Shown: positions 11,652-21,447 of the stretch, in pieces
How positions within the stretch are numbered: position 1 is the first letter of the stretch
How the letters are laid out: the number at the start of each line of letters is the position of its first letter
Assembly: GCF_019649055.1 (NCBI RefSeq)
Contig: NW_026570332.1
Span: forward strand, 310,001-374,000
From: Paramacrobiotus metropolitanus
Lineage: Eukaryota; Tardigrada; Eutardigrada; Parachela; Macrobiotidae
Length of the DNA stretch: 64,000 bases
Direction: 5' to 3'
Notes under the pieces: model-generated
The model's input: the letters and a program-made list of their open reading frames with translations, nothing else
Told to the model about the DNA's origin: nothing
Database searches by the model: none
Program-made: the position numbers and the translations under genes

Positions 11652-13275
11652 CTACACGTTCCGATCTTCCGGTTTCACATACTCCATGTCCAACTCTTTG
11701 AAGATATCCTCCTCACTGTCCACTTTGACGACATTATCCGCTTTGTCGCCACTACCTCGATGCCGGTACAGTCCGAACTCATTCAACAAGAATCCCTTGG
11801 CTTTGGCTTTGGAGCTAATCTCCTGCATGAAGACATCGTTGCCCGTCCAGTGCAACACAGCCGCAGCTTCCTGGCTCTCGGGATACATGCACAGCAGTAA
11901 CATGTGCTGCTCACCATGCTTTTCCTCATCCGCCGCAGATTCGTCATCATCCTTTTTCGCTTTTTTGCGAGGACTGCTGCGTTCAGGTTTCTTCGGAGAA
12001 TGGGCAGCCGGCAACTGGCAAATGCCTTTAACGCGATGGTTGCCTTCGGTCATGGTCTCTGGAAGAAAACCAGAATGCTTCAGCTTTTCGGTTAGTTCGT
12101 GCAGCAAATCCTTCGTTTTGTTTTCGGAAGCACTATGAGTGATGACAGCAACCAATTCCAGTACGGTAGCCTCATGACGGCGATAGGCGCCACACAGTGT
12201 CACTTTGAACCGACCATCCAAACCCTAAAAACAAAAAGATTTATTTACAGTTGTTAATTTATTTTAAAAACCGTAGAAGAAAGGTGATGAAATCCTTTCT
12301 GCAAAAACATTTGGAAACTTTAGCATGGCCAGAATTCTCAAAATATACTGAGTAATATTCTGAGAAATACACTAATAAAATATCTTTCACAGCATTACTA
12401 CTTCTATTGCATAAATTGCCATAGAAAATTTTTTGCCATATGTCCATGCAAACAAATATACAGCATTAAAAGTTTTAATGATATAAATTATATAATCTTG
12501 TAATATCTGTTCCCGTTTGTAACAGAAATCGGGACAAAGCGAATGCTTGCTGTATCCAAATACTGTTAAAAAGTAAAATCAAATCTGCAGTAATTTCAGC
12601 TAATTGCAAGTTTTAAAAAATGCAGTAGACAGGCATGACAAATCGCCAATTAAAGCTTACCTCTAGTTGCTGTTCCAGATACTTCTTGATTTTGTCCGCC
12701 TGCTGCTTGTTTATGGGAGACTCAATAGCGTCCAAGTTCTTCAGGGACTTCTGCAGCTGTTCGGGCAGAAGGTCCGGATGCTTCTTGAGATCCTCAATGC
12801 TTTTAATGCCCTGATCGTACAATTCTTTGGCCCGCGCATGGCCAATTCCGGGCACCCGTGCCAAATCCGCCAGTATCTTGGCTGTGTCGTCGTCGCGAGC
12901 CTCCTCCACTTTCTCCATCTTGCCCGTCTTCAGGAACTCATCAATCTTGCCTGCAATGCTTTCCCCAATTCCCGGCAGCTTCTGCGCTTCAGCACCGCTT
13001 TTGATGCGGGTTTTCTGTTCAGCCAGCGTCTGCGCTGCTTTACGGTACGCGAGGTATTTATACTGCTCGCCGCTGGCAACTTTCTCGTATTCAGCCAACT
13101 CCATCAGCAGCTCGCAGATGTCTGCGTTAGGATTATCGTCGGTGGTCTTGGATTCCTCGCGCTTGCGTTTGCCCATCTCAGCTGACTTGGTGTCCGCGTC
13201 CGGGCTGCTTTTCTTCCCTGGGGAAGCTTTCCGGGGGCTCGGACTTTTGGATTTGGACGAGCGCTTCGGAGGCAT
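11652..13275 (-). CDS. DNA polymerase beta (family X) homologue lacking polymerase catalytic aspartates
   Basis: Two exons, 13275-12661 and 12224-11652, join in phase 0 (…KKYLEQQLE + GLDGRFKVTL…) with a GTAAGC donor and a TTTTTAG acceptor, giving about 395 residues against 335 in human Pol beta. The first exon has a basic Ser/Lys/Pro leader, then the 8-kDa lyase domain and both helix-hairpin-helix motifs (LPGIGESIAGKIDEF and VPGIGHARAKELYDQ). The lysine matching Schiff-base Lys72 is present (GKIDEF). In the second exon the palm motif CGSFRRG...GDMDV is CGAYRRHEATVLELVAV, so Asp190 and Asp192 become Glu and Val. The strand holding Asp256 reads QHMLLLCMYP, so that Asp is lost too. A basic linker (SPKKPERSSPRKKAKK) is inserted before it. 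The rest (WTGNDVF, KGFLLNEF, VDSEEDIF, KPEDR) aligns with Pol beta. The frame is fully open, which suggests a maintained protein with lyase or scaffold function in base excision repair; this is inference. Confidence 0.85.
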
Positions 13276-13550
13276 GATAGGTTGACTGCTAAATGTAGCA
13301 AATGGGGAATGGTAAACACAGGCAGCGAATTCCTAGTGCCAGATAACCTAAAATCTGATGAAAGAAATATCCCAATAAAAATAATACGTCCAAAATTAAA
13401 GGAAAACGTAAAACACAAAAAGTACAGCGAAAGTTCGGAAAAAAAAACAAAAACTGGCAAAAAGGCCAAAACGTTTTGATGTCAAAGTTGATTGCAAACA
13501 GTAAACTGCTGTTAAATTGCCAGTCTAGTTTTAGGCGAACTTTCACTTAA

Positions 13551-14204
13551 GGGAAGTGGGCCGGTACATAGTACCGAATTCGTGTACATGCACGGAAACT
13601 TTAACTTTCGCGCACTCCCAAACATATTTTTGTTTCGGTTTATGACGTTTTGTAGCCAGATGATTTGTACACACGGGCGTGAAAACCGTTTGTGCGCGCA
13701 ACATCCGCTTCGGGAGTTAAGGCTATTAGGAAATCCCAAAAAGTTTAAATGCGTTCAGGTGTACCAAAAGTCTCATTATAGACCGATCTCTCTCAAATTT
13801 TGCACGTAAATGCGCATGTCCATGAAGATCGTTTTTACACCGATCCAGACCTCCATGATTTTTTTCAAATTTTAAAATGAATTTTAAAATTTTTAAAATT
13901 CATTTTAAAATTTGAAAAACATGCTAGAACAGTGGATCGGTGTAAAAACGTTTTTCGTGGTTATGTGCATTACGTGCAAAATGAGGAGATCGGTCCATAA
14001 TGAGACTTTTGGTACACCTGAACGCATTTAAACTTTTGAATTCTGTAACAGCCATAACTCCCGAACCGGATGTTGCGCGCAAACGGTTTTCACGCCCGTG
14101 TACAAATCTTCACAAAACGTCATAAACCAAACAAAAAATGTTTGGGAGTGCTAAAGTTTTCGTGCATGTACACGAATTCGGTACCATGTACCGGCCCACT
14201 TCCC
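13551..14204. mobile_element. 654-bp near-perfect palindromic element flanked by TTAA
   Basis: The two halves are inverted copies of about 300 bp each. The left end starts GGGAAGTGGGCCGGTACAT and the right end finishes with its complement (ATGTACCGGCCCACTTCCC). Outside both lies TTAA (13547-13550 and 14205-14208), a possible target-site duplication. The centre (about 13865-13920) is an A+T-only stretch of TTTTAAAATTT type. Arms differ by scattered substitutions and small indels. There is no transposase frame. TTAA duplication and long inverted ends fit a non-autonomous piggyBac-like or foldback element; the class is inferred from the target site alone. Transcription through it would give a long RNA hairpin. 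Confidence 0.7.
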
Positions 14205-14208
14205 TTAA

Positions 14209-20200: not shown

Positions 20201-20851
20201 ATGTGTGAAAAGTTGACAGTTTATCAAAAGCTGAAAAATGGCTCCTGTGTTTAAAACCGCTGGATATCTTGAGAATCGGTTGTCTGCAGATCGAGGTAAA
20301 TTAGAATTCCCACAGGAAGTTGCGTTAGCGCTCTGCAATGTATTACTTAATGCAGTACTGTTTCCGATACTGTATACAGCCTTAAATTGCACAGCATAAT
20401 TAGCTTGATTTTCAAAGTACATTTATAAGCAAATAAAGTATCTTAAAACCATTGCCCATTTCATAATTAAAGGCTATTATTTGGCAACTTTATGTTTCCT
20501 TATGTTTGCGCAAAATTATTTATATTGGGAAGATCCAACAGCGTATTAGTTAAGTTAATTATGTGCGTACCGTAACTGGTGTTATCATCAGCAATTTTAA
20601 CTGCGTGCATTTGATTTATTTAAAATACGCTTGAAACTATGAAATCTGATTTTATGATATTATGATAATCATGCTAATTATAGATCAATAACTATCAAAT
20701 CACATTTCAACATAAACTAAACGCGTGTACTATGCATTAATATCGAACGCATCAGAGTGGCAGTGTATCAAGCAAAGCTGAAAACCTATAATCTTTTAAT
20801 TAATAATTAACGATATATGTAATAGCAGTACAGAGCTTTCAATTTCCATAG
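14209..20851. other. Gene-poor region upstream of the TGIF-type homeobox gene
   Basis: About 6.6 kb without a convincing exon on either strand. Open frames are short and show no family resemblance. A diverged dispersed repeat occupies 17571-18160. Short TA-rich and GTAC-rich tracts are common (for example near 19355-19395). The first exon of the TGIF-type gene and its control elements are expected here or further upstream, but none could be picked out. Confidence 0.4.
17571..18160 (+). repeat. Diverged copy of the 0.6-kb dispersed element
   Basis: The start (TTATATGAATACTA), middle (CCAGTGGTCA...AAGCTTGTTACCATGG) and end (CAATATTCATCCGTGCTCAG) match the elements at 22699-23322 and 23882-24505 in the same order and orientation, with heavy divergence in between. 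It is a third location of the family, 5 kb from the main cluster. The terminal TACGGATGTAGA repeats are not visible here. Confidence 0.6.
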
Positions 20852-21447
20852 ACCGCAAAGATAGCCAAGGATATTCAGCCTCCGATTCCGAAGACAACGA
20901 TAGCCAACGCGAATATGACCCCGTTGACCTTTCGGAATCCAACCTGAAAAAGCGCCGCGGCAACCTTCCGAAGGAAGCCGTGAAAGTGTTACGCTGTTGG
21001 CTATACGAACATCGCTACAATGCCTATCCATCCGATGCGGAGAAAGCCGAACTAGCCAAACGGGCCAATCTAACCGTCCTCCAAGTGTGCAACTGGTTTA
21101 TCAATGCCAGACGCAGAATACTACCGGAAATGATCACACAAGAAGGCTTTGATCCACGTGATTTCACCATCAGTCGTAAGAACGGCCGCACACGTCGTCT
21201 TCTGCCGGAACTGCAGGCGCGGCTGATGCACGAAAGTCGGAAACGGCTGCAGCTGTACAGTCAGTACGCACCGGTACACGCCCCTCTTCCCACGCATCCC
21301 GTGCGCCCCACGCCCTTGCCGGGATGGTATTTTCCCACGTGGAACTCCATGTATTCCGCTGCATCTCTGAGTGTCCCCTGGCATCCGTTGAACAGTCTAA
21401 CGTCAACAGCCGATTTATCCTATCGACAGGCTATTGCACACCATTGA
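20852..21447 (+). CDS. TGIF: TGIF-type TALE homeodomain protein, 3' exon
   Basis: The exon begins after a TTTCCATAG acceptor at 20850-20851 in mid-codon and ends with TGA at 21445-21447. It reads an acidic leader ([20 protein letters not shown]), then [40 protein letters not shown] and [17 protein letters not shown]. The three extra residues between helices 1 and 2 and the WFINARRR recognition helix define the TALE class. [18 protein letters not shown] and the downstream FTISRK place it with TGIF, a nuclear repressor that binds TGACA-type sites and antagonises SMAD and retinoid signalling. About 90 residues of Arg/Pro-rich tail follow. The N-terminal exon with the start codon was not found; at least one base of the first codon comes from it. 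The acidic leader resembles that of vertebrate TGIF1. Confidence 0.85.

Follow-up and report, generated by a model that had tools for sequence, protein, structure and literature searches.

In mammals, 5'-deoxyribose-phosphate (5'-dRP) removal and gap filling are combined in a single protein, Pol beta. In prokaryotes, noncanonical members of family X (PolX) have been described in which the polymerase is dead and a PHP exonuclease is the remaining activity (Prostova et al. 2022, PMC9226535). These proteins carry a substituted catalytic triad and dNTP site, keep the 8-kDa domain and generally hold an active PHP domain; they include Deinococcus proteins, and some of the genomes also hold a canonical PolX. 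A dead polymerase is likewise retained as an architectural part in the Pol epsilon module and in ImuB, which belong to families and have partners other than those of the protein presented here.

Pol beta itself has been deprived of polymerization in laboratory constructs. Indeed, the polymerase-dead D256A mutant keeps its lyase and lessens the MMS sensitivity of rad27 yeast, and a lyase-dead triple mutant brings no such lessening in yeast without Rad27 (PMC3483300); furthermore, the affinity of the isolated lyase domain for 1-nt gaps in nucleosomes comes close to that of the full enzyme (PMC11914125). Hence lyase or gap binding without polymerase suffices for part of the function, and a Pol beta whose tasks are confined to capturing gaps and removing the 5'-dRP is workable. 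These are laboratory constructs, whereas the gene considered here is natural. Concerning tardigrades, a survey which lists POLB in the base-excision set reports its absence from Echiniscoides cf. sigismundi, a heterotardigrade (PMC6652013), and POLB is among the manually annotated genes of two eutardigrades (PMC6797769); the accessible text of both papers makes no mention of the state of its active site. Polymerase-dead family X proteins are thus known in bacteria, but the open-licence literature searched (topics of tardigrade POLB, BER, PolX and pseudopolymerases) yielded no description of an animal Pol beta with a dead polymerase site.

The DNA analysed is a stretch of 64,000 nucleotides from Paramacrobiotus metropolitanus (contig NW_026570332.1), hereafter the window. 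On its minus strand, from 13275 to 11652, it carries a two-exon Pol beta homologue of 395 aa. The first-pass annotation had described a frame open over both exons with clean splice sites, and this holds: a single open frame flanks a 436-bp intron whose borders are the sole GT-AG pair in the boundary ranges tested. The features of the gene are the following.

12661..13275, minus strand: exon 1, coding for the N-terminal tail, the lyase and the D/fingers domains
aa 1-47, exon 1: SPxK-rich N-terminal tail
aa 48-128, exon 1: 8-kDa lyase domain with the first helix-hairpin-helix motif (HhH1) and the Schiff-base lysine, Lys110 (human Lys72)
12946..12948, minus strand: codon of Lys110, the Schiff-base Lys72 equivalent by alignment
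aa 129-205, exon 1: D/fingers domain with HhH2
12225..12660, minus strand: intron, 436 bp, GT...AG
11655..12224, minus strand: exon 2, coding for the dead-site palm, the inserted linker and the thumb
aa 206-278 and strand 312-318, exon 2: palm, the thumb then running to aa 395
12147..12161, minus strand: LELVA, aa 227-231, aligned to human GDMDV 189-193
11907..12005, minus strand: inserted linker, aa 279-311, SPKK...SPRKK then acidic, of low confidence in the predicted model
11886..11906, minus strand: HMLLLCM, aa 312-318, aligned to human RRIDIRL 253-259 (R254M, D256L, R258C)
11652..11654, minus strand: stop codon TAG
start about 140 nt downstream of the stop TAG: ATTAAA hexamer

The first 33 codons (13177-13275) stand ahead of a Met-Gly-Lys-Arg-Lys that aligns to the start of human Pol beta, Met1-Ser-Lys-Arg-Lys. 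Since this Met34 is Ile in a partial copy of the gene on another contig (C154b, see below), where the upstream ATG is kept, the longer start is the shared one. A foldback palindromic element (13547-14208, ~ 85% self-complementary) precedes the start codon at a distance of about 270 bp, and given that homology to C154b stops at 13499 and restarts at 14208, the element was apparently inserted into the 5' flank at a later time. Elsewhere in the window, Pfam searches with eight other open frames named a single one, a homeodomain frame at 20800-21447 on the plus strand (Homeobox_KN, 7.4e-20).

The protein matches the Pfam families HHH_8 (1.3e-23), Pol lambda fingers domain, Pol beta palm (7.2e-10) and thumb (2e-18), in the order 8-kDa, D, palm and thumb as in Pol beta; among the Pfam families listed there was no match to BRCT nor to a C-terminal PHP domain, and the protein ends with the thumb. 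With phmmer the best PDB chain match is Pol beta (E-value 1.7e-61, versus 2.2e-31 for Pol lambda) and the similarity spans nearly the whole 395 aa, in keeping with the earlier statement that the rest of the fold can be aligned. Of the 18 relatives fetched, 16 entered the exon 2 alignment, whereas the alignment of exon 1 and the tree contain 14; neither alignment includes L045 or L044, whose translated stretch is identical to that of L043, and L042 and L043, which cover palm and thumb only, were used for exon 2 but not for exon 1 or the tree. In a 19-sequence tree the window protein joins human Pol beta rather than Pol lambda with a support of 0.864, on a branch of 1.00 compared to 0.39 for human Pol beta. 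The products of the two exons were folded separately, so that the predicted structures are of each half. The exon 1 product contains an AlphaFold block of pLDDT 88-98 over aa 51-180, with Pol beta in all of the best 50 matches listed. The predicted exon 2 structure retains palm and thumb (mean pLDDT 78, best VIA-align Z 17.8), the top matches being Pol lambda and Pol beta. Judged on these comparisons, the gene is a true Pol beta orthologue. It has in common with vertebrate POLB the domain order, the HhH motifs, the lyase lysine and the fold, but is without the three catalytic aspartates and many of the dNTP contacts, has an altered V303 loop and possesses an extra N-terminal tail and palm linker. 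In contrast to the noncanonical prokaryotic PolX, it has no PHP domain and falls inside the animal Pol beta branch.

The catalytic aspartates of the polymerase site are substituted (D190E, D192V and D256L), on which the phmmer pairwise, the 4-sequence and the 19-sequence alignments agree; a two-sequence MAFFT alignment misplaced the D256 strand, and hence R254, and the other three were used instead. GDMDV has become LELVA (G189L, D190E, M191L, D192V, V193A) and the strand of the third metal-binding aspartate reads HMLLLC for RRIDIR. No polymerase aspartate is left, as had been noticed from the sequence, although one of the three catalytic positions is still acidic with Glu228 at D190. The pocket is further changed by R149P, S180A, G189L, R254M, R258C, Y271H, F272W, N279M and R283S. 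Taking R149, S180, R183, G189, Y271, T273, G274, D276, N279 and R283 to be the nucleotide- and template-contact positions of Pol beta, four out of ten are kept (R183, T273, G274, D276). With these four and the glutamate, one could envisage that polymerase or nucleotidyl transferase activity persists in a residual or altered form, with Glu228 and further residues as ligands, and a B-family group predicted to be inactive later proved active (PMC8764526). However, D192 and D256 are gone together with the nine other pocket residues, and D190, D192 and D256 are all present in the 14 prokaryotic PolX compared (14/14), which makes such an activity very improbable in our view.

The whole assembly (169.8 Mb, 533 contigs, the window copy being on C112) was searched with family X profiles, giving 5 palm, 9 8-kDa and 7 thumb matches, with sub-threshold matches besides on C1 and C20 (L020). 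The five palm matches correspond to three copies of the window gene and to two intact Pol lambda-type genes (C6 and C147), and no intact Pol beta was found with the palm, 8-kDa and thumb profiles. Three further copies of the window gene are present in the assembly, all broken or partial.

C154a, on C154 at 142 kb: exon 2 contains an insertion that introduces two in-frame stops, and the N-terminus is different
C154b, on C154 at 125 kb: limited to exon 1
C222: frameshifts and stops, with the 3' part ~ 21 kb from the rest

Downstream of the broken C154a copy, the open frame L005 (2767-3222) displays tandem repeats of ~ 35 aa (EPSEPMEPHGTSVKPQVNQVHSHLLTRCHTTALPL, identified by eye).

Both other palm-covering copies, C154a and C222, have the same dead site (VLELVA, VMELVA, HMLLL), so that an assembly error is unlikely. 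Moreover, the splice sites flank a single open frame, and all five palm matches are accounted for by this gene and the Pol lambda-type ones. That an intact exon is hidden by an error of the assembly or of the gene model, for which no supporting point was found, is hence scarcely credible. An alternative exon supplying GDMDV was likewise sought among the five palm matches and rejected, the GDVDI of C6 and C147 being of Pol lambda type. These two genes are the family X polymerases with intact aspartates for which a search had been proposed, and both resemble Pol lambda more closely than Pol beta. The C6 gene bears a YFTGS motif and keeps its own lyase lysine. The C147 gene (L002 and L024, ~ 33-37 kb) displays GDVDI, RRLDII and GWTGS, the last of which we take to be typical of TdT and Pol mu, and has a His at the lyase lysine. 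It is possibly the counterpart of a Ramazzottius PolX with TdT activity (PMC12828229). Outside family X, the Glyco_transf_20 profile matches the assembly at exactly three places, which equals the number of TPS-TPP genes published for Paramacrobiotus sp. TYO (PMC8277472).

Between the window gene and the C154 copies, the differing sites amount to 5.9-6.6% in exons, 8.7-10.3% in the intron and 14-17% in the flanks. The corresponding dN/dS is 0.157 over 395/395 codons (Nei-Gojobori; 0.09-0.25 in 1000 codon bootstraps), and 0.191 (bootstrap 0.11-0.31) with a transition weight of 2. By part, it is 0.131 for exon 1, 0.186 for exon 2 and 0.129 for the palm, the sub-domain counts being small. The dS of 0.198 exceeds the distance of the intron (0.111) and of the flank (0.153-0.171), hence the constraint may be weaker than dN/dS suggests; relative to the intron distance the ratio becomes ~ 0.28, still well below 1. 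Since the dead site is common to the copies, the constraint acted after catalysis was lost. A neutral dN/dS had been named beforehand as the result that would indicate a pseudogene, and a neutral pseudogene is ruled out by the value obtained and by the open frame with its one intron. Together, the loss of the three aspartates and this dN/dS support the earlier reading of the protein as a pseudopolymerase, and one preserved by selection.

It could be argued that this constraint is past and that the gene has recently become dispensable, the window copy now drifting like its broken relatives. Indeed, the other copies are all damaged, the palm is just 23% identical to that of human (25/108 positions, the lowest of all domains), and the later pair C154-C222 gives a dN/dS of 0.53 (0.24-1.39). 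Against this, the window frame is fully open, and the upper bootstrap bounds (0.25 and 0.31) allow a neutral share of no more than roughly one fifth to one quarter of the C112-C154 path, which without an outgroup is assessed as a whole. Furthermore, 4.4-5.2 stops would be expected on a neutral branch of K=0.1 and 2.2-2.6 on one of K=0.05, the probability of seeing none being 0.006-0.013 and 0.07-0.11, respectively; none is present. Dispensability is therefore judged unlikely, a very recent release of the window copy from selection being compatible with these figures.

The lyase half exhibits a different state of conservation. The 8-kDa domain has the highest identity to human Pol beta of all domains (42/75 aligned positions, 56%), followed by D (25/64, 39%) and thumb (26/73, 36%), whereas in the C6 gene compared with human Pol lambda the palm is the best kept (65/100, 65%) and the 8-kDa domain reaches 25/69 (36%). 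The dRP-lyase lysine and both helix-hairpin-helix motifs remain, as the first-pass annotation had reported. In the lyase pocket K35, Y39, K72 and K84 are kept, and four residues differ from human (H34Y, K60Q, K68S, E71G), K60, E71 and K84 being likewise pocket positions of Pol beta. S68 occurs also in the C6 gene and in 12/14 prokaryotic PolX, proteins which retain all three aspartates, G71 in 2/14 and Lys72 in 14/14, these counts being biased given that the 14 prokaryotic sequences were picked by a pattern fixing part of the lyase-lysine motif. In Pol beta, the residues holding the 5'-phosphate are K35, Y39, K68 and K72, and H34 is stacked within the gap (PMC11914125).

Concerning the inserted linker, most of it shows pLDDT blocks of 46-56, as for disordered segments. 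It had been described as basic, but the net charge over 279-311 is 0, with a basic half (279-294, net +5) followed by an acidic one (295-311, net -5). Each of the two added segments contains SPxK-like motifs (aa 13, 18, 281 and 289). A scaffold role towards XRCC1 had also been suggested, which does not fit the known V303 docking loop: L301, V303 and V306 are replaced by Arg, Ser and Lys (L301R, V303S, V306K, in an alignment with a one-residue gap just upstream), and this resembles the L301R/V303R/V306R mutant of Pol beta which shows no XRCC1 binding (PMC6614843). Docking of XRCC1 through this loop is thus unlikely from the sequence, and recruitment would probably proceed by other means, for which the SPxK-type tail and the linker are candidates. 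As for XRCC1 itself, the XRCC1_N profile matches the assembly at two places, C18 (L021), where a stretch that looks BRCT-like by eye comes after the match, and C13 (L022), which looks like a truncated duplicate with an N-terminal exon sequence near-identical to that of C18.

Given these features, we consider there to be an even chance that the protein binds gaps and 5'-dRP ends and is probably still a lyase, with gap filling left to Pol lambda or to long-patch polymerases. A Pol beta orthologue would have lost nucleotidyl transfer, and its gene would then have been duplicated. The 8-kDa and HhH domains would capture the 5'-phosphate or 5'-dRP side of a gap and Lys110 would probably remove the 5'-dRP, while the dead palm and thumb may persist as a folded unit that holds DNA. 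Another enzyme, for example the Pol lambda-type polymerase of C6, or else long-patch synthesis would supply the missing nucleotide. This explanation rests on the sequence, the predicted folds of the exons, purifying selection, the finding of no intact Pol beta and the presence of Pol lambda-type genes; from these we infer DNA binding, lyase activity and the hand-over of gap filling. Counting against it, H34, K60, K68 and E71 differ from human, and a Pol beta serving as a lyase alone would overlap in part with the C6 gene, in which the lyase lysine is also present. A non-catalytic gap binder, which would shield gaps and 5' ends or tether repair factors through its SPxK tail and linker without lyase chemistry, draws on the same four pocket changes, on the SPxK-like motifs and on the preserved HhH motifs and predicted fold. 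However, Lys72, Lys35, Tyr39 and Lys84 are kept in the most conserved part of the protein, and such a binder is in our opinion somewhat unlikely.

Starting from the lyase reading, a broader and rather doubtful proposal may be put forward, namely that eutardigrades, or at least Paramacrobiotus, turned their sole Pol beta into a dedicated polymerase-free lyase capturing gaps and 5'-dRP ends. This would uncouple end cleaning from gap filling in base-excision repair, would parallel independently the dead PolX of radiation-resistant Deinococcus, and might aid the handling of very many single-strand breaks. In any case, the listing of POLB as present in tardigrade gene sets does not necessarily imply a working gap-filling Pol beta. 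The gene would offer a lead on how single-strand break repair is arranged in a desiccation-tolerant tardigrade, and a natural animal Pol beta kept without its polymerase half would directly test which half organisms need.
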